Below are positions 22,209 to 38,476 of a DNA stretch of 64,000 bases, in pieces. The notes under the pieces are model-generated. The model ran no database searches. It was not told the DNA's origin and worked only from the letters and a program-made list of their open reading frames with translations. The DNA is from Cyanobium sp. WAJ14-Wanaka (GTDB lineage: Bacteria; Cyanobacteriota; Cyanobacteriia; PCC-6307; Cyanobiaceae). Where the stretch lies: the NCBI RefSeq assembly GCF_024345375.1, contig NZ_JAGQAZ010000003.1, positions 1 to 64,000 of the forward strand. Reading direction: 5' to 3'. The stretch's first letter is position 1. Each line of letters opens with the position of its first letter. The translations under genes were made by a program, and so were the position numbers.

Positions 22209-22700
22209 CTAGGGATCAGATGGTGTAGGAAGATTCACAAAAAGGTGATAACGATTGCGATTGGCAATCCAGGCGTAATCTACATGGTCTACAGATTGCT
22301 GTACAAGGAACAACCCCAGTCCACCAATCTGACGTTCATCTATGGGGAGATGGCTTTCGATCTGGCGGGGTTGGTCGATACCTGGATCGAAATAGGGACC
22401 GTTATCCTCAATCTCGAGGACAAACTGAGGCTGGGAACCAGGGGAACGGAAGGACCGAATCCAAACATGAGCCTGATCTGCTGCTGAATCAGCAGAAGGC
22501 CCAGCATCAAGCTCGCCGGAATAGCGAATAATGTTTGACAGCAGCTCCTCAAAGGCAAGCCTGAGCCTGTAATTAGCAGAGCCCTCCCCCAACTGTTGAT
22601 CCGCTTGGGACTCAACGAACGAGATGAACCGATCCCAGCTCTCCATTGATGCGGGACCATCACAATTGGCGATGGGTTCTAGGGGATGCTCGGGAGCCAT
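22209..22700 (-). CDS. RsbW-like anti-sigma regulatory kinase
   Basis: The protein is a stand-alone GHKL ATPase domain: the N-box LAFEELLSNIIRYSGE, the G1 box LEIEDNGPYFDPG, and the G2 box IGGLGLFLVQQSVDHVDY. Such kinases phosphorylate STAS-domain antagonists and bind a sigma factor or another target. It is the last gene of the minus-strand run, 21 bases after a STAS gene that would be its substrate. No sigma factor gene is present in the window, so the regulated target is unknown. Confidence 0.82.
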   Translation of the reverse strand: MAPEHPLEPIANCDGPASMESWDRFISFVESQADQQLGEGSANYRLRLAFEELLSNIIRYSGELDAGPSADSAADQAHVWIRSFRSPGSQPQFVLEIEDNGPYFDPGIDQPRQIESHLPIDERQIGGLGLFLVQQSVDHVDYAWIANRNRYHLFVNLPTPSDP

Positions 22701-22721
22701 TGCTGGGGATGCGTGTTAGGC

Positions 22722-23045
22722 CTAGGCCTCTTCGTGGCTAGGCACCAGGCTCATGGCCTGGGATAGCCCCGTCTTGTTAATCACGTCAGCAATTTCGTCG
22801 CTAGTACCCACCAGGATCAAACGCGACGCATGGGGCATTTTCTGTTTAGCAAAAACCAGGACCCTCAGACCGGCACTACTGAGGAAACCAACTGAAGCCA
22901 TCTCGATACGCAATTCTGAGAGCCCAGCCAACTCAAGACCGGTTAGGGCCTCCATTAAGGAAGGGGCTGTTTTGGTGTCGACATCACCAGTCAGGCTGAT
23001 CAGGTGATAGTCGTCCTTGCTGATCGATTCAATGGTTAACGGCAT
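22722..23045 (-). CDS. RsbV-like STAS-domain anti-anti-sigma factor, copy 1
   Basis: The 107-residue protein is a complete STAS domain. The phosphorylatable serine lies in VGFLSSAGLRVLV (Ser57), after LTGDVDTKTAPSLMEAL. In partner switching, the unphosphorylated form captures the RsbW-like kinase. It lies 41 bases after the debranching enzyme gene. Confidence 0.88.
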   Translation of the reverse strand: MPLTIESISKDDYHLISLTGDVDTKTAPSLMEALTGLELAGLSELRIEMASVGFLSSAGLRVLVFAKQKMPHASRLILVGTSDEIADVINKTGLSQAMSLVPSHEEA

Positions 23046-23086
23046 GGCTGAAAGTGTTAAAAAGGAAAAAAATGGGCTGGATCGGA

Positions 23087-25222
23087 TCAGACGGGCTTGG
23101 CCGTCAACACCAACACGGATCGATCGCCCAAAAGGATGCCCCCATCTCCCTGGGCTGGCTGGGAGAGATCAAAGGGTTGGTCTCCGTTACCGGTGTTGAA
23201 GCAGAGGTGCCAACGGAAACCAGCCGGCAAATCTGGGAAGCTAAACCAACTGGCGTAATGGGCCATATTACTGGCCACATAGACCGTATCCACATCAACA
23301 GTGCCCACATCGACAGTGTCACCGCCAGCTGGCTGGGAATCGCTGTTGGTGGAAAACATCCAAGCCAGTTGGCGTGAATCAGCAGACCAATCTGGCTGCC
23401 AAGCATTGACGCCGTGGAAGCTGCAATCGGGGAAAAGATTAGATGGTGGTGCATCGAACCGATTAACACGCAGGGCCGGATGGGCATGGCGGAAGTGGAT
23501 TAGGCCCCGCACAAAGTCATGCAGTTGTGCATTTTCCTGCAATAGCGTCCAATCAACCCAGGATATAGCCGAATCGAGGCAATAGGCATTATTATTGCCA
23601 TGCTGGGAGCGGCCAAATTCGTCACCCATCAACAACATCGGCGTTCCACGACTGGTGAGCAGCATCACCATCGCATTCATCGATTGCCGCAGCCTTAGGG
23701 CCTGGATGCCGGGGTTATCAGTCCAACCTTCTGCACCACAATTCCAGCTGTAGTTGTCATCGCCGCCATCGCGGTTTCCCTCACCGTTGGCCTCATTGTG
23801 CTTGTCGTTGTAGGAGACAAGATCGGCAAGGGTGAAGCCGTCGTGACAGGTGATGAAATTGACTGACGTAGCCGGCGAACGACCGCTTGGTTGATATAGA
23901 TCGGGAGATCCCTGCACCCTTTGGGCGAGTTGGCCAACTTGAGCCCCATCGCCCTTGAGATAACGCCTTAGGCAGTCTCGGTACTTGCCGTTCCACTCTC
24001 CCCAACGGCCGAAGGCAGGGAAGGTACCAACCTGATAAAGACCACCTGCATCCCAGGCCTCAGCAATCAATTTGCAAGAAGAAAGGATTGGATCAAAGGC
24101 CAGGGATTCCAGCAACGGTGGATTGGGCAGGGGAGCTCCCCAGGGATCACGGCCAAGAATCGTGGCAAGATCAAAACGGAAGCCATCGATGTGGTATTCG
24201 GCTGCCCAATAACGCAGACAATCAAGCACCAGGTTGCGAACAATTGGATTGTTGCAATTAAGGGTATTGCCAGTTCCGCTGAAGTTGAAGTAATAGCCCT
24301 CGGGCGTGAGCATGTAATAGGTCTTATTATCTAGCCCCTTGAAGGAAAGGGTAGGACCATGCTCATTACCTTCAGCGGTGTGGTTGAAAACCACATCAAG
24401 AATTACCTCAATTCCAGCACGGTGAAAACTCTTGACCAGCTGCTTAAATTCATCCACCTGCATGCCAAAGCGGCCAGTGGCGGCAAAATTGGCCTTTGGG
24501 GCAAAGAAACCAACGGTGCTATAGCCCCAGAAGTTATAGAGCAGCTCCCCGGTATCGGGATGGAGCCGAGAATTTTCAAATTCATCAAACTCATAGATCG
24601 GCATTAGCTCGATCGCATTGACACCAAGATCCTTGAGGTAGGGAATCTTCTCTACAAGGCCGGCATAGGTGCCGGGATGCTTCACTCCAGAACTGTCGGA
24701 TTGGGTATAGGCGCGCACATGGGCCTCATAGACAACCAGATCTTGGCTGGGTATTTCCAGGGGCCGCTCGGCCTCCCAATCAAAATCATCCAGGCTGACG
24801 CAAGCTCGATAGGGATAAAGGGCCTGCCAATTTGGTGCCTCTCCCCACTGATCCCGTCCAGAAATGGCTCGAGCATAGGGATCCATTAAGACCTTACTGG
24901 CATCGAAGCGATGGCCAGCTACTGGATCCTGGGGACCATCGATACGAAAACCGTATTCGATTCCTTCGTAATCGAGGTCGAACACCACCATGCAAAACAC
25001 ATCACCAATCCGGTAATGGGCAGGGAAAGGAAGCTCGGCAAAGGGTTGTTCCTCTCCGCGACGAAACAGCACCAGGGTGCAGGCGGTGCCAGCTGAGGTG
25101 TAAATCGAGAAATTAAGACCATTGGGTGCATGGGAAACACCGAACGGCAGGGGCTTGCCAGGGCGCACTCTGAGACCAGAGATCTCATCGGTGGGCAAAC
25201 TGTCGATCCTTTCAAGCTGCAT
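23087..25222 (-). CDS. glgX: Glycogen debranching enzyme (GH13 isoamylase type)
   Basis: The product, about 711 residues, has an N-terminal CBM48 module (PFGVSHAPNGLNFSIYTSAG) and a GH13 catalytic barrel: VILDVVFNHTAEGN (region I), DGFRFDLATILG (nucleophile Asp), LIAEAWDAGG (acid/base Glu) and VNFITCHDGFTLADLVSYND (third acid). It cleaves alpha-1,6 branches of glycogen. The ATG at 25222 is chosen; it lies one base after the stop of a STAS gene. Near the C-terminus (23262-23330) a valine-aspartate mini-repeat (TVDVGTVDVDTV) forms an unusual insertion in the C-domain. The core genome of such organisms normally has its own glgX, so this may be an extra copy. Confidence 0.9.
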   Translation of the reverse strand: MQLERIDSLPTDEISGLRVRPGKPLPFGVSHAPNGLNFSIYTSAGTACTLVLFRRGEEQPFAELPFPAHYRIGDVFCMVVFDLDYEGIEYGFRIDGPQDPVAGHRFDASKVLMDPYARAISGRDQWGEAPNWQALYPYRACVSLDDFDWEAERPLEIPSQDLVVYEAHVRAYTQSDSSGVKHPGTYAGLVEKIPYLKDLGVNAIELMPIYEFDEFENSRLHPDTGELLYNFWGYSTVGFFAPKANFAATGRFGMQVDEFKQLVKSFHRAGIEVILDVVFNHTAEGNEHGPTLSFKGLDNKTYYMLTPEGYYFNFSGTGNTLNCNNPIVRNLVLDCLRYWAAEYHIDGFRFDLATILGRDPWGAPLPNPPLLESLAFDPILSSCKLIAEAWDAGGLYQVGTFPAFGRWGEWNGKYRDCLRRYLKGDGAQVGQLAQRVQGSPDLYQPSGRSPATSVNFITCHDGFTLADLVSYNDKHNEANGEGNRDGGDDNYSWNCGAEGWTDNPGIQALRLRQSMNAMVMLLTSRGTPMLLMGDEFGRSQHGNNNAYCLDSAISWVDWTLLQENAQLHDFVRGLIHFRHAHPALRVNRFDAPPSNLFPDCSFHGVNAWQPDWSADSRQLAWMFSTNSDSQPAGGDTVDVGTVDVDTVYVASNMAHYASWFSFPDLPAGFRWHLCFNTGNGDQPFDLSQPAQGDGGILLGDRSVLVLTAKPV

Positions 25223-25223
25223 G

Positions 25224-25553
25224 TCAGGAGCGCCCGGGAAGTGCGGCAAGATCTGGGTAGATCACAAAATAGTCGTAGAAACCAGTGACACGCATGGTTT
25301 CGGCAATGCCCTCCACCAAACCCACTAGGGCAAGATCGGTGGAGAGTTGTTGGGTGCGGCGATGCAGGGTCAGGAGGGTACGCAAGCCAGCACTCGACAT
25401 GAAAGGCACCTTGGTTAGGTCTAAGACAACGGGCTGTTGTTCGGTGATCTGCTCATCAATGAAGTCACGCAGGCTTGTTACGGTTTTGGAATCCACCTGC
25501 CCATCAACATGGATGGCAAACCAACCATTCACCGTACTAGAAGTGAGATTCAT
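25224..25553 (-). CDS. RsbV-like STAS-domain anti-anti-sigma factor, copy 2
   Basis: This 109-residue STAS protein has the phosphorylation motif VPFMSSAGLRTLL (Ser54). It begins at the ATG at 25553, since the upstream TTG would overlap the previous gene's stop. It is wedged between the AGE-type gene (5-base gap) and glgX (1-base gap), so its level must be tied to theirs. It is only distantly similar to copy 1. Confidence 0.87.
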   Translation of the reverse strand: MNLTSSTVNGWFAIHVDGQVDSKTVTSLRDFIDEQITEQQPVVLDLTKVPFMSSAGLRTLLTLHRRTQQLSTDLALVGLVEGIAETMRVTGFYDYFVIYPDLAALPGRS

Positions 25554-25558
25554 GGTGC

Positions 25559-27385
25559 TCAATTAGGGGTAAGGGTGACCTTCACCTGAAGACGGGTCTC
25601 TGAATCGGGTAGCTGGACGGTGAGCCGTTCAGCATCAAAGTTGGAGTAGGACTGACCATCAATCAGACAGGAAGTAATCCTTACACTACCTGCGGGCAGC
25701 ATGTCGGGAGAAACGCGCAAGATCCTGTCAGCGAAACCATTGGGCAGGGGCTTGAAGAAAAGGTCCAAGGGCCTCTTCTCAATCATCAGATCTAGATACA
25801 CCGTAGAAAGGAAGCAAAGTTCGGTGGAGTGATAAGCACTCATCGAATGGCTGCCTTTGAAGCGCTCCGTACCCATCAAATAGGGAATACCACTGGCCAG
25901 CACGTTGAAGTAAACGCCGCCGTCGTTGTTATCGAGGAAGAAAGCATTGTAGAAGGCTGCCGACTCGTCGGCATACTTCTTGTAGCTGCTGGTTTCAGGT
26001 AGGTGCCCCTGCAAGATTAGGTAGGCAAGGATGCCCTGCTCCTGTTGCCACCAGGCCTTGCGATCGTGCCAGGCATAGCGATGAAAACGCTGGCCAGGTT
26101 GTAGCACCCGATCCACCACGTCGTACCAACCGAAACGCTGCTTGTCGTAACCCACATCGGGCATTAATTGGGCAATCTTTTCAGCCAAGGCCACATAGGA
26201 GTCCTTGGGTTGCACTGCCTGGAAACGCATGAGGTTCCAAGCAATCTTGAGGTTATGGCCCACCACGGCACGGTTCTGCTGCCAACCCCAGGTCTGATCC
26301 TTCGACCAATCATCGAAGAACTTCTCCTGCACAAAGGGGCTTTCATCGTAGTCGGGGAAGTGGGCACAGATGGTGTCGAAGGTGTCTTCAAGCATCACCT
26401 TGTAGCGATCCTGTTCGGTGGCCAGCCAAAGGTTAATTAGGTAGGCGGGAGCATGATCACCCACGGAGTTCCAGTTTTTCTTAGCCCTATTGCGGCCAAG
26501 GGATTCCTCATGGGCGCTAAGGGTTACCGCATGGATATGGGAGTAGTAGCCGCCCTTCTCATCGTCACGGAAATATTGATCAAACAGATCTATGGTTTTT
26601 TCGGCGTCGTCAAGGATGCGGGGATCACCACTGAGTCGATAGGTCTGAATGGGACCTGCCAAGGCGTAGATCTGCTCATAGGCAGGAATTGAGTCGTAGT
26701 CGTCTCCAAACTCAGAAACAAGCAACTTCTGCTCCTGGCCGCCGGAACTCACCTTTTGGCCGTGGTACCAATAGATCAAGCCAGTATCGGTATCAACAAA
26801 ACGCATCTTGTCGCGCAGATATTCGGTACCCTTCTCAGCAGCCTCAAGAAATTCGTCTTTGCCAGTGAGCATGTAGGCCGAGGCCATGCCGTACACCATG
26901 CGCGAAATGGTGTCGGTCTCCTGCAGATAATCCTCCTCCTTCTTGCCTCCGGTGAGGCTGATCAGAGTACGGTAGTTGCTGTAATCAATCGGATCGGTAG
27001 GGGCATTGAATTGCCACTTGATGTAGGAGGTGGCAATTGAATCAATTTGGCGAATCCACCAACCGGGCTCGGCATAGCGATGATCGTCTTTGCTGTCGCC
27101 AGCAAAAACGATGAAATTCACCTCAAAACTGGTCTGCTGCTCAGGGAAGAAGGTGCCATAGAGAAACAGCATTTGACCAGGCACCAGCAACTGCTCCAGC
27201 TGGCCACCTCGATCTTGCCAACCCTCCTCCAAATTTTGGGTCTGCTTGGCATAGGTGTTGACGGTAAGAATGGCGCTATATAAGCGGCCATCGGATGTTT
27301 CCAGCTCGATCACACGAGCGGCGGAATCGTAAGAGCAGACGTATCCGGAGATGAGATCAGAAAAGCTAAAATTGAGGCTGTTCAT
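25559..27385 (-). CDS. AGE-family (N-acylglucosamine 2-epimerase-like) protein
   Basis: The 608-residue protein has an N-terminal domain of about 110 residues that looks beta-rich, then a long alpha/alpha-barrel of the AGE/cellobiose-epimerase style: DTISRMVYGMASAYMLTGKD, KGGYYSHI, WGWQQNRAVVGHNLKIAWNL (with a characteristic histidine) and WWQQEQGILAYLIL. A C-terminal beta domain follows. AGE proteins interconvert sugars, but this one is larger than typical epimerases (about 400 residues), so the substrate could be an oligosaccharide. It sits upstream of the STAS and glgX genes. Confidence 0.75.
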   Translation of the reverse strand: MNSLNFSFSDLISGYVCSYDSAARVIELETSDGRLYSAILTVNTYAKQTQNLEEGWQDRGGQLEQLLVPGQMLFLYGTFFPEQQTSFEVNFIVFAGDSKDDHRYAEPGWWIRQIDSIATSYIKWQFNAPTDPIDYSNYRTLISLTGGKKEEDYLQETDTISRMVYGMASAYMLTGKDEFLEAAEKGTEYLRDKMRFVDTDTGLIYWYHGQKVSSGGQEQKLLVSEFGDDYDSIPAYEQIYALAGPIQTYRLSGDPRILDDAEKTIDLFDQYFRDDEKGGYYSHIHAVTLSAHEESLGRNRAKKNWNSVGDHAPAYLINLWLATEQDRYKVMLEDTFDTICAHFPDYDESPFVQEKFFDDWSKDQTWGWQQNRAVVGHNLKIAWNLMRFQAVQPKDSYVALAEKIAQLMPDVGYDKQRFGWYDVVDRVLQPGQRFHRYAWHDRKAWWQQEQGILAYLILQGHLPETSSYKKYADESAAFYNAFFLDNNDGGVYFNVLASGIPYLMGTERFKGSHSMSAYHSTELCFLSTVYLDLMIEKRPLDLFFKPLPNGFADRILRVSPDMLPAGSVRITSCLIDGQSYSNFDAERLTVQLPDSETRLQVKVTLTPN

Positions 27386-27458
27386 TGTGCTGGGGAAACT
27401 GGAAAATCCGGTTAAAAAATCGAGACGCTCTAGAGGGAAGACAACAAACCATTGCTGG

Positions 27459-28046
27459 CTAGAGAGCCTGGATTGTGCTCAAGAACAATTCGTCAAAGGC
27501 ATCCACACTGCCCGGGTGGCGGCCGGTAATCAACAGGCCATCAGAATGGGTATCTACAGTTTCACCATTTGCCACCACCAGCTCACCACCAGCGTTCTCC
27601 ACATCACAGGCAATGTTGTGGGCACAGGTGACCTTGCGGCCCTTAATTAAGGACGGATCAGCACAGAACAACCAGAGCGAGTGGCAGATGGTACCAATCG
27701 CCAGCTGACCCGCATCCATGCGCTGTACAGCAGTGCGTAACAACTCCACCGCCGGTGCAGTGTTGCGGGAGCCACTAAGGGTGGTTTGGTAACGCAGGCG
27801 ATCCATGGCATAGCCACCAATCAGGATCAAACCCTTGTAATCAGAAAGGTTCACCTTGCTCACACAGAGATCAACCTTTACCTTGCTGGTTTTGTCGTTG
27901 CCCTCAAATTCCAGACTTTCATTGCCCCACAGGTAGGAGGCGTAATCCACTGCAACCCCATGGGTCGGGAAGAAGCTGTTGAACACGTTAAATTCAGTTT
28001 CGTCGTAATGCTCTTCAACTAGGACGAGAATTTTAGAAGATGCCAT
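27459..28046 (-). CDS. DJ-1/PfpI family protein
   Basis: The 195-residue protein has the family fold: KILVLVEEHYDETEFNVFNS, GLILIGGYAMDRLR and the nucleophile elbow AIGTICHSLWLFC with Cys121-His122. Relatives are stress-related glyoxalases/deglycases or intracellular proteases. The gene is in the middle of the minus-strand run, with a 73-base gap to the AGE gene. Confidence 0.85.
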   Translation of the reverse strand: MASSKILVLVEEHYDETEFNVFNSFFPTHGVAVDYASYLWGNESLEFEGNDKTSKVKVDLCVSKVNLSDYKGLILIGGYAMDRLRYQTTLSGSRNTAPAVELLRTAVQRMDAGQLAIGTICHSLWLFCADPSLIKGRKVTCAHNIACDVENAGGELVVANGETVDTHSDGLLITGRHPGSVDAFDELFLSTIQAL

Positions 28047-28094
28047 AACAGAGGGGAATCAAAAATGTTAACTAAGTGTTGAAGGCAGAAAAAC

Positions 28095-28283
28095 TCAACC
28101 GTTTGAGTTTGAGCGCAAAAGCAAGCCGTGGATCGATTGATAGGCCGCAGATCCACCTAGGCAGGCACCCGCCGCAATCAGGCCCGCCAAGGGAGGTACT
28201 GGCAGGGGCAATTTAAAGATCGAGAAAACAAAACCGACCAGGAAACCTCCAATCAGGGTGGTGGCAAGAACGGAAAATGTCAT
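28095..28283 (-). CDS. XapX-domain small membrane protein
   Basis: The 62-residue protein is two hydrophobic helices with the XapX/DUF1427 consensus (GGFLVGFVFSIFKLPLPVPP followed by LAGLIAAGACLGG). The function is unknown; in many bacteria the family sits beside cupin, DJ-1 or hydrolase genes, as here. Confidence 0.85.
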   Translation of the reverse strand: MTFSVLATTLIGGFLVGFVFSIFKLPLPVPPLAGLIAAGACLGGSAAYQSIHGLLLRSNSNG

Positions 28284-28346
28284 GGGTTGCTTTTAACGGG
28301 GAGTAGGCAGATGCAGGCGGGCAAATGAGGTGTCCAACCGCGGTGA

Positions 28347-29096
28347 TTAGCTCAGGGGAGCAGCCAGTAGCTCCTTGAGATCATCAAGGTGATCGTCGGC
28401 GGCCAGGGTGGCCTTGCTAGCGGGGCTAATCGAATGGAGATACTGCATAAAATATTGGCTCTGGTTAATGCCGTATTTAGGGGCATCCTTCACGAAGGGC
28501 TCAAGCCGAGTGGCATCCACCTTGAAATCTGAGGGAAAGCTCGTAACGCTCTCACCGGTGTCGCGGAAGTACTGGGTGATTCGTTCCGGTGCCCATACAA
28601 AGGTCATTTCCACCGGATGGTCGGTGCTGTTGTAAAAGCCATGGACGTGACCACGGGGCACGTAGTAAAGACTTTGGGGCTTGGTCTCGATCAACTGAAT
28701 ATCCGCCCCGGGGGCATTGCCGTTGGGCACCTTGCTCAGATCGCTATAGGTGTGGTCTGGGTCAAGGAAGAGGGTGATGCCACCGTTGGGAAAGTAGAAC
28801 CACTCGTCGTAGTTGTCGTGGAAGTGGGGCAGCGGTCCCGATCCGGGGGGCACCAGTGCCTCCGCCATCGTGTAGGCGTTGCCAGTGTTGCGGCCGGTGC
28901 GGGTAAAGGTGAATTGCTCCCCGGGGGGGCCGATGATCAATTCGGGCTCGGGGCTGGGGGTGTATTCGGGAAAGGGAAGACCCACCGTCTGGGCCTGGCT
29001 CAGGGAAGGCAGCCCAAACAGGCTGGCCATAAAGAGGGCTGTGCAGGCCAGGTTTAGTAACAGGCGGCGCAGAGCTGCAGAGAAGTTGGAAAGCAT
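28347..29096 (-). CDS. Secreted cupin-domain protein, copy 2
   Basis: The protein is a full-length paralogue of the cupin at 17970. It has a signal peptide (LACTALFMASLFGLPSLSQA), the metal motif PHFHDNYDEWFYFPNGGITL, the second motif VPRGHVHGFYNSTDHPVEM and the shared C-terminal motif APKYGINQSQYFMQYL. Here the second metal-site motif has both histidines (GHVHGF), where copy 1 has YYLHGF. It starts six bases after the carboxymuconolactone decarboxylase-like gene. Confidence 0.83.
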   Translation of the reverse strand: MLSNFSAALRRLLLNLACTALFMASLFGLPSLSQAQTVGLPFPEYTPSPEPELIIGPPGEQFTFTRTGRNTGNAYTMAEALVPPGSGPLPHFHDNYDEWFYFPNGGITLFLDPDHTYSDLSKVPNGNAPGADIQLIETKPQSLYYVPRGHVHGFYNSTDHPVEMTFVWAPERITQYFRDTGESVTSFPSDFKVDATRLEPFVKDAPKYGINQSQYFMQYLHSISPASKATLAADDHLDDLKELLAAPLS

Positions 29097-29102
29097 GGTG
29101 GA

Positions 29103-29477
29103 TTAGGCCTCCGCCTCGATACGGGCACGGATATCGCCTAGCCGCGCAAATGCTGGGGCAGCCTTGTTGAAGCCTGCGTAGACGCAGGTGAAGAGCAACA
29201 ACTCCTCAAGCTGCTCAAAGCTGGCCCCCTGCTTCAGGGCCATGCGCACATGGGCTTCGAAGGGGGATTCCGGCACCATTCCCTGGTTAGACACATCGAT
29301 GGCGATGGTGATCAGGGCCTTGGTGAGTTGATCAATCGAGGGCTTACCCCAAACCTCACCCGCCACGCGGGTACAGAGATCGCCAAAGGCAGGGTGAATG
29401 CCCTTCAGGGCAGCCTGTAGAGCTGGATCGTCGAGTACGGCGTTGGCGGGAGCATCCGCCGGAAGGTGCGGGGACAT
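29103..29477 (-). CDS. Carboxymuconolactone decarboxylase-like protein
   Basis: The 124-residue all-helical protein fits the CMD/AhpD family (KALITIAIDVSNQGMVPESP, FEAHVRMALKQGASFEQLEE, LLLFTCVYAGFNKAAPAF). The CxxC redox pair of AhpD is absent, so it belongs to the decarboxylase-like branch; the reaction is not known. No signal peptide is seen. Confidence 0.82.
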   Translation of the reverse strand: MSPHLPADAPANAVLDDPALQAALKGIHPAFGDLCTRVAGEVWGKPSIDQLTKALITIAIDVSNQGMVPESPFEAHVRMALKQGASFEQLEELLLFTCVYAGFNKAAPAFARLGDIRARIEAEA

Positions 29478-29572: not shown

Positions 29573-30109
29573 TCAATCTGCCGCGAAGGCCTGCTCCAGC
29601 CAGACGGCGGCGGCCAAGCCACACTCCTCATCAAGCTGCCCCTGGCGGGCTCCCGACACACCCAGCCCCCCCAGGAGCCTGCCCTCCGAGCGCAGCACCA
29701 CCCCACCTGGCAATGGAGTGATCTGATCCACACTGGCCGCTGGCAGGGGCAACGCCCCGATCGGTGCTTTCCCTTGGCGTAGGGAATTGGCCAACTCACC
29801 GGTGGTAGTAAATCCCTGCAGTGCCGCCAGGGAAGCGGCCGTGTAGGCCTTATGGCGACTCAGCTGCGCAGTATGGGGAGAGGCGCCATCACCATGCAGA
29901 AATACCTGCAAGGTACCTTCCCCATCCACCACGCTCACACTCACCTGCTCCCCCCTCTGCTGGCAGCTCTCCACAGCCACGGCAGCGGTGCGGTTAGCCA
30001 GCTCCAGCGGTAGGCGCTGCAATTGCACCAGGTTCGCGGCCGCGCTGAACTGGGGGATGCCCAGCAGCAACATGGCCGCCAACACAATGGAGAGGATCAG
30101 GGAGTGCAT
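29573..30109 (-). CDS. Exported HbpS/GlcG-like haem-binding family protein, copy C
   Basis: A signal peptide (LILSIVLAAMLLLGIPQFSA) is followed by the HbpS domain: AAVAVESCQQRGEQVSVSVV, GDGASPHTAQLSRHKAYTAA and GGVVLRSEGRLLGGLGVSGA, ending DEECGLAAAVWLEQAF. It is the third member of this family in the window and the second to be linked to a secreted cupin, here across one CMD gene. Confidence 0.83.
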   Translation of the reverse strand: MHSLILSIVLAAMLLLGIPQFSAAANLVQLQRLPLELANRTAAVAVESCQQRGEQVSVSVVDGEGTLQVFLHGDGASPHTAQLSRHKAYTAASLAALQGFTTTGELANSLRQGKAPIGALPLPAASVDQITPLPGGVVLRSEGRLLGGLGVSGARQGQLDEECGLAAAVWLEQAFAAD

Positions 30110-30126: not shown

Positions 30127-30690
30127 TCAGGGGTTTTTGAGCAGGGCTAGCAGCTGGGGCGAGGCGAAGACATCCCGGTAGAAGGTGAGCTGCTCGCTCT
30201 TGAAGTAGCAGCCTCCTGCATGGCCACGGCGCACCCAGCAGACCGTGCCCTTGGCAATCGCTTCACCACTGGCGTCGTCGAGGCAGTGCCATTCGAAGTG
30301 CACAAACTCGCCCCAAAACATCACGATCGGCCAACACATCGTCACGCCGGGCTGGGCAATTAGGGCCCACCAGTGCTGTTCACGCTCGGTTTGCTGGTCT
30401 AGACCATAAAAAGGGCCGTCCTGGCAGAAATAGACCAGATCCTGGCGGTATTCACCACGCAGCAAATCACCACGGGCCCGGCGCAGGGCTTCGCAGTGGG
30501 TGGGCCACCAGGCCTTATTTTCCGCCTCGATCTGCTCGCGGCTAAAGCTGCCATCGATCTCGGGCAGGCTGGGCTGCTTGAGGGCGATGAAATCCTCTGC
30601 CTGCTTGATCAGGCTCTCACCCTGCTGGGTGCTAACTAGGCCGGGCCTGGAGAAGTCTGCGGACAACTCCTGGTAGTAGTTCTTAGCCAT
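30127..30690 (-). CDS. SnoaL/NTF2-like protein
   Basis: The 187-residue cytosolic protein looks like a cone-fold NTF2/SnoaL-like protein: AENKAWWPTHCEALRRARGD, YRQDLVYFCQDGPFYGLDQQ and FVHFEWHCLDDASGEAIAKG, followed by WVRRGHAGGCYFKSEQLTFY. The substrate is unknown. It lies 17 bases before the HbpS-like gene and 23 bases after the sugar isomerase-like gene. Confidence 0.7.
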   Translation of the reverse strand: MAKNYYQELSADFSRPGLVSTQQGESLIKQAEDFIALKQPSLPEIDGSFSREQIEAENKAWWPTHCEALRRARGDLLRGEYRQDLVYFCQDGPFYGLDQQTEREQHWWALIAQPGVTMCWPIVMFWGEFVHFEWHCLDDASGEAIAKGTVCWVRRGHAGGCYFKSEQLTFYRDVFASPQLLALLKNP

Positions 30691-30713: not shown

Positions 30714-31571
30714 TCAGGGGGGCAGAAGCCCCAGTCGATGCTTGAGGAAGCGTGCACCCTCGAGCACGATCGTTTCCGAATCAGCACCGAAGGAGCGCCA
30801 ACTGCGCGTGCGCCGTGCAATCACAGGGTGGCTGGGATCGAAGGTTTCAATGCTTACCAGCATGGTGGCCGGAAAGGTGGCTAACCAGCTCAGCAACTCG
30901 GGCCAATCAAGGTGGCATTGGCCTAGGGGTCCACGGTTGGCACCACAGAGATGCACGTGGGTGGTGCCGGCTCGATGGCTGGCCAGATCTTGATAAAGGT
31001 GGCCCTGCTCCATGTTGGCGTGAAAAATGTCGACCAGGATCCCAACGTGGGCAAGATCGACGGCGCGGCAAACCTCTGACACCTGCTCGAAGGTGTTAAG
31101 CAAGCTGCTCTGATAGCGATTGAGGGGCTCAATACTGAAGGGAATCCCGGCCTGGGCCAGGTCGTGGCGCAGCTCCAGATAGCTATCAATTAACCGATGG
31201 CGATCATCGGCGGAGGAGGGCTCCGCCGCGGGGCTGGAAAGATCCCCGTGGATCGGGCCGGAGAGCTTCAAAGCTCCGCAGGCCTGGGCAAACTCCAAAA
31301 GACGCCGCACGTGGTCCTGGGCGCCACGGCGAATGGCCCCATCGGCACTGGCCAGACTGAGACCCCTGGGTAAACCTGAACAGAGCGTCACCGGCAGACC
31401 GTGCTCAGCGGAAAGGCGACTAACCAGCGCAGGCGTCAGACCGGCCAGGTCGTAACTGGCAAGTTCCACAAAGTCGACAGAGGAACCCGCCAACCTGGGC
31501 ATCAGCGATTGGAGCTCGCCATCGGTAATACCTGGCGACCAGGCAAAGGTGTGGGCTCCGATCAGCACCAT
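30714..31571 (-). CDS. Sugar phosphate isomerase/epimerase-like TIM barrel
   Basis: The 285-residue protein is an AP-endonuclease-2 type barrel, as in D-psicose 3-epimerases and hydroxypyruvate isomerases. Metal-binding acids and histidines occur in order: SIEPLNRYQSSLLNT (Glu), GILVDIFHANMEQG (Asp, His), THVHLCGANRGPLG (His) and MLVSIETFDPSHPV (Glu). This is the arrangement of an active Mn-dependent ketose epimerase or isomerase; the exact sugar is unknown. Confidence 0.82.
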   Translation of the reverse strand: MVLIGAHTFAWSPGITDGELQSLMPRLAGSSVDFVELASYDLAGLTPALVSRLSAEHGLPVTLCSGLPRGLSLASADGAIRRGAQDHVRRLLEFAQACGALKLSGPIHGDLSSPAAEPSSADDRHRLIDSYLELRHDLAQAGIPFSIEPLNRYQSSLLNTFEQVSEVCRAVDLAHVGILVDIFHANMEQGHLYQDLASHRAGTTHVHLCGANRGPLGQCHLDWPELLSWLATFPATMLVSIETFDPSHPVIARRTRSWRSFGADSETIVLEGARFLKHRLGLLPP

Positions 31572-31588
31572 GGGATCGAGGTGGAGGG

Positions 31589-32458
31589 TTAGCCCTTGCG
31601 GGACACGGTTTTAATCAATTCAGCAACGGCCTCGGGCGCCTCCTCTGGCAGATAGTGGCCGCAACCGGGCAACACACCGCCGCTAACGGCGGGATCGCAG
31701 GCCTGCAGAGAACGGAGAAAATTATCTGCGGTGGCCTTTTCACCCCCGTAAACCACCAGCGGACGTTCGAATCGATGCTCACGGTGGGCCTCGGCGAAGG
31801 CCCGATTAGCTTCAACGGCGCGGTAAAAGTTGAAGCCGGCGGTCATCGCTCCGGGGCGGCTGTAGGCCTGCACATAGTGGGAAACTGCCTCAACTGTCAT
31901 GGCACCGGCCACCGCTGATTTGGTGCGGAAATACCAACCCAAATATTCGGCCTCGCGGCCAGCGGTAAGCAGCTCGGGCATCTCGGCCATGGCGTGGAAG
32001 TGGAACTGCCAGGTGCGCGAGCCAGGCCTGGGCATGTAGGCCTCCGTTGGGGCCAGGCCAATCAGGGCCGCATCCAACAACAAGCTGCTGGTGAGCCGAT
32101 GGGGATGGAGCACCGACAGGGCATAGGCCACCCAGGCCCCCACATCGTGGCCAACCAGAGTTAAAGAATCGATCTGCCTGTAGCTGAGGTAGGCCTCGAC
32201 CTCAGCGGCCACCGCCTCAATGCTGAAGTTGCTCTCCAGGGCAAGGCTCGTCTCACCCTGGCCCTTCAGATCAAGGGCAATCACGCGATAGTCAGCACTG
32301 AGCAGGGGCATGACCCGGCGCCAAGCGAAGCAGGTCTGGGGCCAGCCGGCCAGTAGCAACAGCACGGGGCCTTCGCCGTCCTCCACGGAATGGAAGCGCA
32401 GCTCTCCCACCTGGTCGTAGCGATGCTGGGCTGTGGCAGGAAAACTCTCAGCAGCCAT
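31589..32458 (-). CDS. Alpha/beta hydrolase, epoxide hydrolase/dehalogenase type
   Basis: The nucleophile elbow reads TLVGHDVGAWVAYA, with aspartate rather than serine, as in epoxide hydrolases and haloalkane/fluoroacetate dehalogenases. The oxyanion motif LLLLAGWPQTCFAWRRVMP and the late histidine in VLPGCGHYLPEEAPE are present. It is the first gene of the 13-gene minus-strand run and diverges from the ABM-type gene. Confidence 0.82.
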   Translation of the reverse strand: MAAESFPATAQHRYDQVGELRFHSVEDGEGPVLLLLAGWPQTCFAWRRVMPLLSADYRVIALDLKGQGETSLALESNFSIEAVAAEVEAYLSYRQIDSLTLVGHDVGAWVAYALSVLHPHRLTSSLLLDAALIGLAPTEAYMPRPGSRTWQFHFHAMAEMPELLTAGREAEYLGWYFRTKSAVAGAMTVEAVSHYVQAYSRPGAMTAGFNFYRAVEANRAFAEAHREHRFERPLVVYGGEKATADNFLRSLQACDPAVSGGVLPGCGHYLPEEAPEAVAELIKTVSRKG

Positions 32459-32493
32459 CGTTGCGGGCCCTCAGCGAAATCATTCGCATTGTG

Positions 32494-32988
32494 ATGGCAA
32501 GTTGCACTTCCTGCAGCAGAGCCCTACAAAAGAATGAAATTCTCCAATGGGTATTCGTGCAAAAGCAACCGAGCCAAAGGTTCCATTGGAGGGCCTTGGC
32601 AACCAGACTGCTGGCACTGGCAGTGGTGCTGGTAATGGGCCTGTGGGGGGTGCAGCCAAGCCTGGCCGCCAGCAACGAACAGGTAAGGGTGGTCGGCAGG
32701 CTGCCAATGCAGCTTAGCACCACTGAAAGGCAGGAATTTGAACACCAAACCATGGACCTGGCCAAAATCACCCGGGCCGAGGATGGGGTAATCCAGTACT
32801 CCTGTAATGCCGACATTGAGAAGCCCGGCACCTACGTGTTCGATGAGATCTGGCCGAGCGAACAGGCCCTTAACGACCATCTCAACACAGACCATTTCAA
32901 ACAGTGGTGGGCCTGGGTTGAACCCCACCTAAATGGAGATCTGGTAATCAACATCGCCGATACAAGACAATTCCATAGCGTCTCCTAA
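32494..32988 (+). CDS. Exported antibiotic biosynthesis monooxygenase-domain protein
   Basis: A hydrophobic signal segment (LLALAVVLVMGLWGVQPSLA) precedes an ABM-fold domain of about 100 residues (QVRVVGRLPMQLSTTERQEF, DGVIQYSCNADIEKPGTYVF, WPSEQALNDHLNTDHFKQWW). Members of this fold are cofactor-free quinol oxygenases or haem-degrading proteins. The start is uncertain: ATG at 32494 or GTG at 32557; the second gives a more standard signal length. The gene is divergent from the hydrolase operon, so the short gap holds both promoters. Confidence 0.72.
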   Translation: MASCTSCSRALQKNEILQWVFVQKQPSQRFHWRALATRLLALAVVLVMGLWGVQPSLAASNEQVRVVGRLPMQLSTTERQEFEHQTMDLAKITRAEDGVIQYSCNADIEKPGTYVFDEIWPSEQALNDHLNTDHFKQWWAWVEPHLNGDLVINIADTRQFHSVS

Positions 32989-33002
32989 AGATTGCTAACT
33001 CC

Positions 33003-34828
33003 ATGAATGATCCGCAGACTTTCCTGGCCACCAAGGAGGTGGATTTTAGGCAAGAATTCATCTACTTCATTATCGTTGATCGCTTCTTCGATGGCAGCGC
33101 CGACAATGAGGAACGCAAGGGGTTTGGGATCGGGGGGAACGGGCGGGGCTACTCGACAAAACCTGGATGGAATGGGGTAAGTACTGGGGCGGCAATCTAC
33201 AGGGAATCATCGACAAAGTTGAATACCTCAAGGCCCTAGGAGTAACCGCCGTATGGCTTTCACCGCTATTTGAGCAGGTGGATGACATGCAGTTCAACCG
33301 AGCACCAATGCACGGCTATTGGGCACGCGACTTCAAACGGATCAACCCACGCTTCCTTCCCCAGGGGGAGTCGGCCAGCCTGGGAAGCTCAGAGACCCTG
33401 AAAAGACTGGTGGAAACCCTCCATGACTCAGGCATCAAATTGATATTAGACGTGGTCTGCAACCACAGCTCACCAGACATAAATGGGAGCAAGGGAATTG
33501 TGCTTGATGATGGAAAACCATTTGCCAACTTCCACAGCGACGAGGCAAACCTATATCACCACAACCCAGAAATCACAGACTGGCAAGATGAATACCAACT
33601 GATCAACCATGAAATGTGTGGCCTAGCCACATTCAACGAAAATAATATCAACTTCAGAAATTACATCAAAGATGCCATCAAAGCCTGGATAGACATTGGG
33701 GTTGATGCCCTTCGGGTGGACACCCTCAAGCATATGCCCTTATGGTTTTGGCAGGAATTCACAATAGACATCAAACGCCACAAACCTGAAATATTCCTAT
33801 TTGGAGAATACGGGTTTAGCAAACCCTGGGATCAACGATCAGTTGCATACGCCAATCACAGCGGCATGTCAATCTTGGACTTTGGCCTCTGTGATGCCAT
33901 TCGCTTTGCCTTTTCAAACCAGCAACCGGGAGGGTTTAAACTGATAGAGAAGGTATTGGCCATGGATGAGGTCTACAAACGTGCCAACGAATTGGTGACG
34001 TTCATAGACAACCACGACATGCCTCGATTTCTATCCATTGTAAGCGACTCCAAAAAACTTGACCTGGCATTGGTGTTACTAATGACACTACGCGGAGTGC
34101 CATGCCTTTTCTATGGAACAGAACAATACCTCCACAACAACACTGACGGAGGGGAGGATCCCTACAACCGACCGATGATGGAATGCTGGGATCAGAACAG
34201 CCGTCCATACCAATTAATCAGCAGGCTTGTTCAGCTACGCCGTACAAACCAGTCCCTAACAATGGGAAACCACCAGCAGCGATATGTGGACCAAAGTCTC
34301 TATGCCTTCAGCCGCCACTATCGCGACAGCCATGTGCTCGTAATATTAAACCAAGGATCAGCCACCCAAATTAGCCTGAACGAAACTGGCCTGCCAAATG
34401 GTTTACATACCTGCAAGCTCACTGGAGAGGTGCTAGAGCAAAAAAATGGCCTCATCAACAACGTGGCCATGCCAGAGTATTCCGCAAGGGTGTTCAGTGT
34501 GGAGGGCCTAAGGGTGCAGGGCCAGGTGGTAGGGGTATTTCAGTTAAACGGATACCACAGCCAGCCTGGTCAACGGATCGCAATCACAGGCAGTTGTCCC
34601 GAGCTGGGCGAATGGGACCACAGCCTGAGTTACGGCATGGAGTATGTAAACAGCAACACATGGATTGCGGAAGTTGCCTTCAACGCCTCTGCCGGGGTCT
34701 CGATCGCGTTTAAATTTGTGGTAATGAATCAAAACAGAGCTGAAGTTATAGAAAATATTGTGAGCCGAAATCAATTATTACCCAACCAAGGCCGAATAAA
34801 GCTGGATTGCATCTGGAATGACGATTAA
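33003..34828 (+). pseudogene. GH13 alpha-amylase/CGTase-like enzyme with CBM20, frameshifted
   Basis: The N-terminal part (33003 onward: EFIYFIIVDRFFDGSADNEE) and the rest (LLDKTWMEWGKYWGGNLQGI onward) lie in different frames; the break falls at a G-run, 33132-33148 (CGGGGGGAACGGGCGGGG). All GH13 acids are present in the second frame: ALRVDTLKH (Asp), FLFGEYGF (Glu) and FIDNHDM (Asp). The C-terminus is a CBM20-like starch-binding module (GQRIAITGSCPELGEWDHSL). No signal peptide is seen. A one-base deletion, a sequencing error in the G-run, or a programmed minus-one slip on C-GGG-GGG-A would each explain it. The pristine downstream frame argues for recent damage or recoding. Confidence 0.78.
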
Positions 34829-34932
34829 ACCAAGCGCAAACCCTCAATAGGCCTAAAACAATACGAACTCTTACAAAATTGGGCAGCGTTGCGCTGTCTA
34901 AATATCATGGAAAAATATCGATCATCACAAAC

Positions 34933-35823
34933 TTGAAATCCATTTCTCAGAAATTAAGGAAGCTGCCTGGGCCAAGGCAAGTTGCAATGGTGGCAATTGC
35001 ATTAGTAGCAGCCACGGTCTTATTTGGTCAGGCACCCGTGCTAGCGCAATTCAGGGAACTATTCACGCCAATTCCTCAAACGGCGGTACTCAAACGGGGT
35101 GCCACTGAAAGAGTCGACCACGACTTTACCAGTTCGGGCGGAGTGAAATTAAAGATGCCGCGATTTCTCAAGAATCCCAGGCAATTCACCACAGCTGGAG
35201 GTGATGTCTTGGTGATGCTTAGAACGCCTGGGGATACCTGCGGCCTATACGAACTCAGCGAAACCATTGCACCCAATGATGCGGGGCCACCGCCCCACTT
35301 CCATTTCGCATCCTCCGAGTGGTTCCTTCCTACAGAGCCATCCACATTTCGAATCTACGGCACCCAGGAGGCAAACCCCCTCACTCCCGGTCAACTCCCC
35401 GGTGTCAACGCTCCAACGCCCAAGATGGGTTCCCTGGTGATCGGCAAGGGCGAACTGGTGTATTCACCGAAAGGAACAGTGCATTTCTGGCACAACGAAA
35501 GCCCCAATAGGGAAGACATACGCGGCTTTTACAACATCTGGAACCCAGCAAACGGCGTAAACGACTGGTTCGCGGGGGTAAGTGATGTGAACGGCAGCAC
35601 CGCCGTTCTTCCCCTGCCGGCCCCCCAGGCCACCACACTCCAAACAGCCCTCTGGGGTGTACCCCACGACCCAACCGGTACCTTTGTGGGCCGAAGCGAC
35701 TACCGCAACATTCGTGGCCCTGTAGCCAGCGATGGGAACCATCTTCAAGAGCTGCAGGAGCTATTCGATCGTGGAGAAGCCTGCTACCCGAAGAGCGGTC
35801 CTACAAACACTAAGAAGGTCTAA
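34933..35823 (+). CDS. Secreted cupin-domain protein, copy 3 (diverged)
   Basis: A basic, hydrophobic leader (KLRKLPGPRQVAMVAIALVA ... APVLA) directs export. The cupin motif reads PPPHFHFASSEWFLPTEPST, comparable to PHFHDNYDEWFYFPNGG in copy 2, and the second motif is VYSPKGTVHFWHNESPNRED. It is about 300 residues with a longer N-terminal region than the other two cupins. No ATG lies before the signal; a TTG at 34933 or 34879 must serve, or the start is recoded. It follows the amylase gene on the same strand. Confidence 0.72.
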   Translation: MKSISQKLRKLPGPRQVAMVAIALVAATVLFGQAPVLAQFRELFTPIPQTAVLKRGATERVDHDFTSSGGVKLKMPRFLKNPRQFTTAGGDVLVMLRTPGDTCGLYELSETIAPNDAGPPPHFHFASSEWFLPTEPSTFRIYGTQEANPLTPGQLPGVNAPTPKMGSLVIGKGELVYSPKGTVHFWHNESPNREDIRGFYNIWNPANGVNDWFAGVSDVNGSTAVLPLPAPQATTLQTALWGVPHDPTGTFVGRSDYRNIRGPVASDGNHLQELQELFDRGEACYPKSGPTNTKKV

Positions 35824-35825
35824 AG

Positions 35826-36330
35826 ATGGCCAAACACAATGATCTACTGGTACTAGCAGCGAGCTGCGAAAAAATCTAGAGCTGACCCATCACTTTTCAG
35901 ACGCTGACACCGAGCAAGGTAAGCGAGTAAACGTAATTGATCTCCCCCTACATCCGCCGCCACTTTTCACGCCAAGAAGCCAGCAGCTGGGTTAGCAAGC
36001 GGGTGTCATTACACTGCAGGAGCGAATGCTGGCGTCATCACACTGGCTAATTTGCGCGCCAGAGTATAACTGTTCAATCCCACCGGTGTTCACCAGTGCC
36101 ATCGCCTGGCTTTCGACCCAGGGAGAGGATTTTCGTGCCCTATTCAATGGCCAACCAGTTGCAATTACCAGCCATTCCGGTAGCGGCGGCATTGAATGCC
36201 TTTCAGCCCTGCGCATTCAATTGGCCCATCTAGGTGCCCATGTGGCAGGCCGCCAAATGGTATTGCGTGGCGATCAAACTACGAAGCGGGAAAGCATCGA
36301 AGCCCTACTAAATACCCTATTTCAAATGCA
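35826..36330 (+). pseudogene. Dead NAD(P)H-dependent FMN reductase
   Basis: The frame starts MAKHNDLLVLAASCEK two bases after the cupin stop. It then hits a stop caused by loss of one A in the run at 35869-35874. In the next frame LELTHHFSDADTEQGK and GKRVNVIDL continue, an in-frame TAG follows at 35993-35995, and LICAPEYNCSIPPVFTSAIA and PVAITSHSGSGGIE complete the family pattern. With a frameshift plus a nonsense codon it cannot give a full reductase. The natural C-terminus is lost near the convergent phosphatase gene. Confidence 0.85.
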
Positions 36331-36397
36331 GCCTGCCTCGCGAAGTGGTAATTATCCAGACCATGCTGCAAATTCAGACTGTTATTGGCTTCCGAAC

Positions 36398-38476
36398 CTA
36401 TTTAATTTTCATTACCAGCATTGTGAGATCATCGAACTGCTCAGCGTCAGCACGATGCTGGCTAACTGTCTCTGTCATTTGATCCAACAAAGATTTGGCT
36501 GTCGTTTCTTTTGGATCAACATTGGCTAGCACGCCCTTAACGCCTTCTAGGCCAAATGATTTATCAGAGGGTGATCTTGAATCCACAAGTCCATCGGTAT
36601 AGGTAAAGAGAAGCTGGCCGGGCTGCAAATCCGTTGTATTCACTTCGTATTTTGCTCCATCAAAAATACCAATGGCTGGCCCCGTGGTTTTCAATTCATC
36701 CAATACGCCTAGTTCTCTGACAATAATTGGCGACTCGTGCCCGGCGCAAACATAGCTCAATTGATTTTTGCTCTTCTCAAAGGCTCCCAAAAAGAGTGTG
36801 GCAAACATAGATGATCCAGCATGATTAGTGGCCATATAATTATTAACTTGGGTAATCGCATCATCTAAGGATCTTTCCAATCCCTGATAAGCCAACTCCT
36901 TATCTTCATCTAACAATGAATACCTGATCAGGCTTCGAAAAACCGACATGAACAAGGCTGAGGCAATGCCTTTGTCACAGACATCAGCGATTACTACGTA
37001 TGTAATGTCTCCTGAATCAACAGCATCGTACCAATCGGCACCAATATCGTAGGCAGGATCAAAATCAGCGGCTAGCTCAACATGCTCGGAGCTCGGGAGA
37101 TCTTCGATAACAAAACTCTTTTGAATATTAGTTGCCGTTTGTATTTGCTGATCAGTAACAGCATGTTCTAGCTGACTAGTCAACAATCTCCTAAGATTAT
37201 AGCCTGTCTGATTAATATCTTCAAATAGCTTTCCTATTTCATCCTTTCGAATTGTGGCAATTCTAGCCTCAAAATTTCCAGAGCTAAATTCTTTTATTGT
37301 TGATGCGGCCAGCTGGATCGGTTCTGCGGCTTTTCTGCAAACCAAGGCAATTACTATTGTTGCTCCTAGGAGGGTAATTAATTGATAGGCTAGCTGCTCC
37401 ATAATCTGATGCCTAACCGTTGCATAGCTAGATTCCTTATCAGTGATTGCAACCATACTCCACTGACTATCAATTTTCTTTGAATACACAAAGTAATCTC
37501 TACCTTCAGATTCCGTCTCCCCAAAATTGCCCCTGACACCTGCATGCAATGCGACTTTCACAAAAGGACCCCATGGGCCTTTCGAGATTTCCGCAGGAGT
37601 CTGTAGCGATACTTTGTCATTAACTGATGATTCAGGGAAAATAACATATCCGTCCCGACTAACCATCATGACCTCTAATCCCGTAAAGTCATTATTTTGC
37701 AAAGATATAGGTGTATTCCAATGCGCATCTAGTGCACCACTATCTTTGCCATCAGAATCCATAATTTTTACGATTTGATTAAAAACAAGTCCAAGACCGG
37801 AATCCTTAGGGGTATCGCTGAGGCCTATGGCAATACTCAAAACTCCGGAGGGAATAGACGAACTTGTGGAGACAGAACTAACCCCTGGTGCATAAACTGG
37901 AACACTTTCCACATAACAAGGCTGTCCAATAATGCAGTTCTGGTAGATTCCATAAGCAGGCTCCCCCTGCCTTGATTTAAGGAAATATGACCTGGAAAAT
38001 GCGTACTTTCTCGTGACAGGTTTTGTTACATTAGTGCCAACAAGCAGGTCGCCATCTCTGCTCCAGAGCCGCCAAGATCTATAGGGAAAAAGAATATTTA
38101 ATCGGTCAAAAATTTGCTCGGTTTCATCCTGATCAAGCTTTCTAATTGGCGGCGCAAATGAAAGTATCTCAAGTAGCTGCTTTGTGCTTTCCCTCCACTT
38201 TGTGATCCCAAAATATACGAAAGAGCCTTGCTCAACAAGCAGTTTCTGGGTTTCTAGTGTCGCCTTTTTTGTATAGTGAATATCTGTGGCAATATTGATC
38301 GGAATTAAAATTACTGCCAAGCCCGCCCAGATGCTTACTATCAGCTGGCTACGCAGAGATTTTGGACCGGCAAGGGTTCTAGCCCTAATTTTATTAAGAT
38401 CTAAATTCTTAATGATTGGCTTATCGGTTACCCAGCTTGTATCTGATCGCTGGGGGCGTTGATTGATAGGGGCCAT
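36398..38476 (-). CDS. RsbU-like membrane sensor phosphatase (Cache-HAMP-PP2C/SpoIIE)
   Basis: The protein is about 692 residues from the ATG at 38476. A membrane helix near residues 45-65 (LIVSIWAGLAVILIPINIAT) and a second near 370-390 (LITLLGATIVIALVC) flank an extracytoplasmic Cache-type sensor. A HAMP linker (PIQLAASTIKEFSSGNFEAR) and a PP2C domain follow (DIGADWYDAVDSGDITYVVI, ADVCDKGIASALFMSVF, LFTYTDGLVDSRSP, QFDDLTMLVMKIK). Such enzymes dephosphorylate STAS proteins on stimulus. With the RsbW-like and two STAS genes at 22-25 kb it forms a complete partner-switching set on the same island. Confidence 0.88.
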   Translation of the reverse strand: MAPINQRPQRSDTSWVTDKPIIKNLDLNKIRARTLAGPKSLRSQLIVSIWAGLAVILIPINIATDIHYTKKATLETQKLLVEQGSFVYFGITKWRESTKQLLEILSFAPPIRKLDQDETEQIFDRLNILFPYRSWRLWSRDGDLLVGTNVTKPVTRKYAFSRSYFLKSRQGEPAYGIYQNCIIGQPCYVESVPVYAPGVSSVSTSSSIPSGVLSIAIGLSDTPKDSGLGLVFNQIVKIMDSDGKDSGALDAHWNTPISLQNNDFTGLEVMMVSRDGYVIFPESSVNDKVSLQTPAEISKGPWGPFVKVALHAGVRGNFGETESEGRDYFVYSKKIDSQWSMVAITDKESSYATVRHQIMEQLAYQLITLLGATIVIALVCRKAAEPIQLAASTIKEFSSGNFEARIATIRKDEIGKLFEDINQTGYNLRRLLTSQLEHAVTDQQIQTATNIQKSFVIEDLPSSEHVELAADFDPAYDIGADWYDAVDSGDITYVVIADVCDKGIASALFMSVFRSLIRYSLLDEDKELAYQGLERSLDDAITQVNNYMATNHAGSSMFATLFLGAFEKSKNQLSYVCAGHESPIIVRELGVLDELKTTGPAIGIFDGAKYEVNTTDLQPGQLLFTYTDGLVDSRSPSDKSFGLEGVKGVLANVDPKETTAKSLLDQMTETVSQHRADAEQFDDLTMLVMKIK

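Follow-up and report, generated by a model that had tools for sequence, protein, structure and literature searches.

An operon of the RsbUVW-sigma type is defined by a cognate sigma factor gene within or beside it, and the question arises what is controlled by a set of partner-switching genes that is embedded among carbohydrate genes and has no such neighbor. A locus of this kind is present in Cyanobium sp. WAJ14-Wanaka (contig NZ_JAGQAZ010000003.1, positions 1 to 64,000; these 64,000 nucleotides are hereinafter the window), where two STAS proteins and an RsbW-type kinase are encoded among carbohydrate genes, as the initial annotation had noticed and as the Pfam matches to STAS and HATPase_c_2 bear out. 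The same annotation knew of no described system with this composition, a claim that has to be abandoned: the gene set is that of the icfG cluster and the sll1783/sll1304-1307 operon of Synechocystis, as described in PMC8670252 and PMC12329169. This is an icfG cluster (slr1852-1862 of Synechocystis) in rearranged form, carried by a small-genome cyanobacterium; new here is the altered layout, the cluster type itself having already been described.

The icfG cluster has long been tied to the control of glucose and inorganic carbon utilization, and why its STAS genes lie between sugar enzymes is a standing question. In PMC8670252, slr1852-1862 are presented as one salt-repressed operon that includes AGE, STAS, GlgX and IcfG genes and faces sll1307-1304 and sll1784-1785; the icfG and sll1783 operons are also termed divergent in the title of a 2024 paper cited in PMC11368403, and Slr1857 is treated as an isoamylase-type debranching enzyme in PMC4911114. 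According to PMC12329169, Slr1861 is both the kinase of Ssr1600 and an anti-SigC factor that controls the SigC-containing RNA polymerase. That paper cites Slr1856 and Slr1859 as substrates of the Slr1861 kinase, states that IcfG dephosphorylates Slr1856 but not Slr1859, gives the target sigma factors of these two STAS proteins as unknown, and reports RsbW-type inhibition of SigC for Slr1861 only.

Gene content and order of the locus

Thirteen minus-strand genes, delineated by open reading frames (ORFs) and family matches, extend from position 32458 down to 22209. From the start of the run they encode an alpha/beta hydrolase, a xylose isomerase-like TIM barrel protein (AP_endonuc_2), a 187-residue protein, an HbpS-like protein, a carboxymuconolactone decarboxylase (CMD) family protein, a cupin, an XapX-like protein, a DJ-1/PfpI family protein, AGE, STAS1, GlgX, STAS2 and the HATPase_c_2 kinase. 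The intergenic gaps, in agreement with the original description of the run, are 17, 23, 17, 95, 6, 63, 48 and 73 bases from its start to AGE, and 41 and then 21 bases 3' of GlgX. On the two flanks of STAS1 there are overlaps of 4 and 26 bases when the longest ORFs are taken; given ATG starts at 25553 (STAS1) and 25222 (GlgX), the gaps are 5 and 1 bases, as had been proposed. The run is presumed to be a single transcript; a scan for promoter-like sites (13 vs. 12.8 in shuffled sequences) and terminator-like sites (12 vs. 18.5) is uninformative on the number of transcripts.

Within the run, AGE, STAS1, GlgX and STAS2 follow one another in this order on the same strand, together with the kinase gene. 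The AGE-superfamily sugar 2-epimerase (25559..27385, minus strand, as are all the genes in this paragraph; 608 residues; PF07221, E=4.7e-15), the counterpart of Slr1855, is 60% identical to its homolog in L076, the reference locus introduced below; its frame ends at 25559, and STAS1 is a separate gene rather than part of an AGE:STAS fusion. STAS1 (25224..25562; STAS, E=4.3e-20; 48% identity over 86 residues to L076 STAS1) and STAS2 (22722..23045; STAS, E=6.9e-15; TIGR00377 above cut-off; 38% identity to L076 STAS2) are predicted anti-sigma antagonists, counterparts of Slr1856 and Slr1859, with the acceptor motifs FMSSAGL and FLSSAGL, respectively. Between them lies the gene for the isoamylase-type debranching enzyme GlgX (23087..25249; TIGR02100 above cut-off; 61%), and the run ends with the RsbW/SpoIIAB-type kinase (22209..22700; HATPase_c_2, E=1.6e-12; 30% to L076 RsbW), the Slr1861 counterpart and presumed anti-sigma factor.

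The comparison with the icfG cluster and its opposite-strand sll1783/sll1304-1307 genes was made through L076, not through Synechocystis sp. PCC 6803 itself. We take L076 to be Synechocystis-like because its RsbW agrees, at 15 of the 16 residues checked, with those named for Slr1861 in PMC12329169; position 108 is Leu, for which that source gives Met in one passage and Leu in another, and among three further Slr1861 residues, read by eye, L10 and L13 agree and N11 differs. All 13 genes of the run, as well as the ABM-domain and phosphatase genes that lie beyond it in the window, have homologs within 15 kb of L076 (16 ORFs). One strand of L076 carries the 187-residue protein, CMD, DJ-1, AGE, STAS, GlgX, STAS, an IcfG-type phosphatase (634 residues) and RsbW; the other carries ABM, cupin, XapX-like, cupin, TIM barrel, hydrolase and HbpS genes. 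The gene kinds are the same, but in the window most of the second, sll1783-type set is co-directional with and upstream of the core, so that 13 genes point one way, the phosphatase gene has moved upstream, past a block of ABM, GH13 and cupin genes, and the run holds one cupin where L076 has two.

The partner switch and its likely output

As an explanation of the locus as a whole, an icfG-type cluster whose partner switch acts via a remote sigma factor is strongly favored. The PP2C, STAS and HATPase components obey the same logic as the RsbU-RsbV-RsbW module of SigB and the SpoIIAA-SpoIIAB-SpoIIE module of SigF in Bacillus, from which the cluster differs in that its two STAS genes alternate with genes for sugar enzymes and no sigma gene is included. 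The absence of a sigma gene nearby had been pointed out in the initial annotation; none is found between 15 and 46 kb of the window, and only one of 127 AGE neighborhoods searched with the eight sigma factors of the Cyanobium genome as seeds contains a sigma-like ORF. That ORF, in L097, was rejected as a linked sigma factor: it is located 3 kb past RsbW, beyond two other ORFs.

The Cyanobium genome (2.14 Mb in 7 contigs) encodes two HATPase_c_2 proteins and eight sigma-70 region-2 proteins above cut-off, along with two SpoIIE proteins. It also holds three STAS matches, and an Ssr1600-like DSSGLG motif is carried by the third. Candidates for parts of a cascade of the Slr1861/SigC type are present, and the combination of an RsbW-type kinase with a remote STAS protein is shared with the Slr1861/Ssr1600/SigC cascade of PMC12329169. 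Among separate STAS proteins the acceptor Ser is invariant (106/106 STAS1 and 85/85 STAS2; 191/191, duplicates included), and the window RsbW retains the Glu and Asn of the N-box and the GGLG lid seen in L076.

By analogy, the kinase would phosphorylate both STAS proteins at the second Ser of their S-S-A-G motifs. The membrane PP2C phosphatase would read an extracytoplasmic signal via its sensor domain and dephosphorylate at least STAS1. The unphosphorylated STAS proteins and the remote Ssr1600-like STAS would then associate with the kinase and set free a group-2 sigma factor (SigC in Synechocystis), with slower growth and retuned photosynthesis as the result; co-transcription of AGE, GlgX and the small oxidative or catabolic genes would couple the handling of glycogen-derived sugars to the same carbon-status signal. 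The signal of the phosphatase and the substrates of the enzymes are presumed in this scheme. By this analogy a remote sigma factor, SigC, is the most likely output, and the suggestion of a remote target in the initial annotation agrees with the SigC work on Slr1861 in PMC12329169. Kinase activity, the action of IcfG on Slr1856 and SigC as the target have been reported by others in Synechocystis only; gene content, gene order, homology and conserved residues were directly observed here, and the window proteins are presumed to behave like their Synechocystis counterparts.

Several observations weigh against this interpretation. No SigC ortholog was picked out among the eight sigma-70 proteins of the Cyanobium genome. 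Identity to L076 is low for RsbW, STAS2 and the phosphatase (30, 38, and 28%, respectively) compared with 60-64% for AGE, GlgX, CMD and the 187-residue protein; the ABM, TIM barrel, cupin and hydrolase proteins are equally diverged (28-38%). Asn50 of the L076 RsbW is replaced by Arg in the window. Finally, the window phosphatase gene does not lie between STAS2 and RsbW, and the protein groups with the upstream copy of L100, a locus in which this copy coexists with another that follows RsbW.

Conservation of the AGE-STAS gene order

The structural model of AGE (36 sequences; predicted local distance difference test, pLDDT, 82.1; predicted template modeling score, pTM, 0.88) has glucose and cellobiose 2-epimerases (8h1l, 5zig, 3wkf) as its top fold matches (Foldseek E ~1e-13), from which it differs in sequence (16-21% identity in the best rows) and in additional beta-rich parts at both ends. 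The nearest named AGE relatives include Vulcanococcus and Synechococcus. At E<=1e-20, AGE is found in 46 of the 388 genomes sampled from the class; the figure is 15 of 201 for the family and 1 of 10 for the genus, and thus its occurrence in the latter two is patchy. A first tree hinted that the window AGE came from Bacteroidota, but a second one did not retain this origin, which was discarded.

The 127 AGE loci that were collected, 80 of them the closest relatives kept from a single scan (best 80 matches) and the rest from genomes sampled evenly across the class, include 12 of a fused kind, 3 distant paralogs and 4 duplicates, leaving 108 distinct non-fused loci; L092, cut at its C-terminal end, was counted as fused by relationship. 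Several of the 108 loci end at contig edges, and many records are metagenome-assembled genomes. The next gene, defined as the next among 17 searched families on the same strand within 4 kb, is STAS after AGE in 107 loci, with a gap of at most 100 bases in 80, and in the 108th, L119, a STAS ORF is present although masked by an over-long GlgX ORF. After STAS, GlgX or another GH13 protein follows in 104 of the 108 loci, and the median gaps, computed from longest-ORF starts, are 31 bases (AGE-STAS) and 6 bases (STAS-GlgX). At any position in these loci, a second STAS is found in 94, RsbW in 90, PP2C in 69 and DJ-1 in 92. The loci belong to seven named phyla, namely Cyanobacteriota (57), Bacteroidota (28), Pseudomonadota (8), Chloroflexota (7), Thermodesulfobacteriota (4), Planctomycetota (1) and Acidobacteriota (1); the two others are from an unplaced metagenome-assembled genome and from L099, labeled a proteobacterium but grouping with the family of the window. 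Because STAS is next after AGE in all but one of the 108 distinct non-fused loci, the arrangement is not due to chance, and the co-occurrence of the STAS-AGE and STAS-glgX adjacencies, which the initial annotation had singled out for a search, proves to be widespread. The AGE-STAS cassette is no cyanobacterial speciality. In the open-licence literature, we found no published account of the AGE-STAS order or of the AGE:STAS fusion described below.

The AGE neighborhoods show some further features. An ORF of Hormoscilla (L176:9626-11818) matches both the DJ-1 and the AGE profiles and is a possible DJ-1:AGE fusion. A large ORF, of the NACHT/WD type by eye, lies about 3.5 kb downstream of AGE in L147 (15385-18612) and 19 other loci, and is from Bacteroidota in 11 of the 12 loci among those listed. 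De novo clustering of unassigned neighbors yielded several recurrent upstream families.

AGE:STAS fusion proteins

In 18 cyanobacterial proteins of about 710-740 residues, AGE and STAS are fused. At 11 loci the AGE frame runs on into a C-terminal extension, matched in every case by a STAS2 profile (E<=4.5e-8), and seven more proteins, likewise all matched by this profile, came from searches of the family (L182, L184, L188) and the phylum (L199, L200, L201, L203). Detection depends on the profile: a first profile scan found a STAS stretch in only 7 of the 11 ORFs, all 11 being reached by the STAS2 profile only, and of 10 fused proteins scanned at full length, only 2 exceed the cut-off of the Pfam STAS model; in a six-frame scan this model scored above cut-off in the AGE frame of 8 of 12 fused-only genomes, in two of them only with neighboring pieces. 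The fused domain is closer to STAS2, which follows GlgX, than to STAS1, which adjoins AGE (11/11), and GlgX/GH13 is upstream of the fused AGE in all 18 cases, whereas loci with a separate STAS gene have it downstream of that gene.

In a second tree, built with the STAS part trimmed, the fused proteins form one clade (support 100/98), which is recovered in 100% of 200 bootstrap trees; of 75 rows this tree keeps 61, thinning having removed 13 and one being empty, and it includes 14 of the 18 fused proteins. A first tree had left L077 unplaced; several independent fusions were dismissed on the basis of the second tree with its larger number of rows. The fused form spans eight cyanobacterial family labels. 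The acceptor position, aligned in part by eye, is Asp in 8 of the 18 domains, Ser in 3, Thr in 3, and Glu, Asn, Ile and Gly in one each; since the Ser-bearing members L077, L200 and L203 occupy early branches, the fusion probably preceded loss of the acceptor. Of 203 near-invariant positions, the fused AGEs retain 171-198. In 9 of 11 of them Ser replaces His208, which hardly varies among unfused AGEs, and therefore the fused enzyme may have changed function.

Within the family of the window, a match to the window RsbW (E<=0.01) is found in all 8 genomes with a separate AGE and in none of the 7 with a fused AGE only, although these related genomes are not 15 independent cases and two of them (G492 and G478) are less than 80% complete; G478 has a fused copy besides the separate AGE, and its RsbW match crosses a stop. 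The fused-only genomes hold other STAS proteins, and all 7 encode another HATPase_c_2 protein above cut-off.

Do the STAS proteins control the sugar enzymes?

The initial annotation also raised the possibility that the switch acts on a sugar enzyme, which is unproven but gains some support from the fusion clade. If the STAS proteins are phosphorylation-controlled enzyme subunits, one phospho-state would dock on AGE, and perhaps on GlgX, to set sugar flux, the kinase and phosphatase would shuttle STAS between enzyme and kinase, and the sigma branch would be a second output. The conserved order with its short gaps in seven named phyla, the single well-supported fusion clade, the preserved core of the fused AGEs, the scarcity of Ser among the fused domains and the 8/8 versus 0/7 distribution of RsbW all speak for this possibility, which we nevertheless place well below even. 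The fusion is a single event in one phylum; its STAS domain resembles STAS2 rather than the AGE-adjacent STAS1 and is rarely recognized by Pfam in whole proteins; Ser or Thr persists in 6 of the 18 fused domains; His208 is mostly replaced; and the kinase contrast comes from related, partly incomplete genomes, all of which in the fused-only set hold another HATPase_c_2 protein that could serve as a different kinase.

Operons often group genes by condition, and the enzymes might merely be co-expressed with the switch to serve the same carbon condition, the fusion being an accident of neighboring genes devoid of regulatory meaning. The loss of the acceptor Ser from most fused domains fits such an account, to which we give somewhat less than an even chance; the persistence of the order over seven phyla goes against it, as does that of the fused form over eight family labels, which is unexpected for a meaningless fusion. 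The fusion clade and the cross-phylum order together raise, without proving, the case for a metabolic output, and make direct control of the enzymes by STAS a testable answer to the question of why the STAS genes lie between them. In its fullest form, in which STAS proteins are phosphorylation-gated subunits of AGE (possibly GlgX) across phyla and one clade became fused, then lost the acceptor Ser and, at least in the family of the window, the cognate kinase, resulting in a hard-wired, often Asp-bearing, phospho-mimic-like enzyme, this proposal is offered tentatively, in the expectation that it is sooner wrong than right.

The PP2C phosphatase

In the icfG cluster the PP2C gene is inside the operon; in the window, the IcfG/RsbU-type membrane phosphatase is encoded about 4 kb upstream of the start of the run, on the same strand (minus strand, from 38527 with a TTG or 38476 with an ATG start to 36398; 28% identity over 449 residues to the IcfG-type protein of L076). 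Other loci, too, carry the phosphatase gene upstream or in divergent orientation. Because the protein groups with the upstream copy of L100, which coexists with a post-RsbW copy, it may not be a strict ortholog of IcfG. Both L050 and L100 encode two IcfG-type phosphatases, one upstream and one after RsbW, of which the window retains the upstream kind only.

Five Asp residues are invariant over 18 IcfG-type proteins and are all present in the window phosphatase; presumably, they bind metal. The Cache-HAMP-PP2C architecture initially assigned to this protein holds for the PP2C domain (SpoIIE, E=5.7e-41) and its position; HAMP scores 23.6 bits, below the cut-off of 25. In the structural model (18 sequences; pLDDT 79.8; pTM 0.49) a long helix at 58-123 is followed by an alpha/beta region at 133-363, two further long helices and the PP2C domain; the model matches the PP2C domain of SiaA and, across 442 columns, one chain of an integrative McpB-McpC chemoreceptor model; because of this predicted fold and the chemoreceptor match, a Cache-like sensor is plausible. 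In two other loci, ORFs match both the RsbW and the IcfG profiles and are possible kinase-phosphatase fusions (L146:14882-17308 and L155:17043-18932).

Remaining genes of the locus

The other genes of the run, all on the minus strand, encode the alpha/beta hydrolase with which it starts (31589..32458; PF12697; 38% identity to the L076 homolog), the TIM barrel protein (30714..31571; PF01261; 32%), the 187-residue protein (30127..30690; 64%), which has no Pfam or NCBIfam match and whose counterpart heads the AGE-side run in L076, the HbpS-like haem protein (29573..30109; PF03928; 45%), the CMD family protein (29103..29477; E=2.1e-11; 64% over 99 residues), the cupin (28347..29096; Cupin_1; 37% to one L076 cupin), the XapX-like small protein (28095..28283; 53% over 47 residues; NCBIfam TIGR03510 at 25.3 bits, below the cut-off of 27.8) and the DJ-1/PfpI family protein (27459..28046; PF01965; 51%). 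Divergent from the run are genes for the ABM-domain protein (32461..32988, plus strand; PF03992; 28% over 79 residues) and for a GH13 protein with a C-terminal CBM20 starch-binding domain (33167-34828); a GH13-family ORF likewise adjoins the upstream phosphatase gene in L050 and L097. Two further HbpS-like genes and another cupin gene, resembling those of the run, are located in a low-GC stretch of the window (15650-18740).

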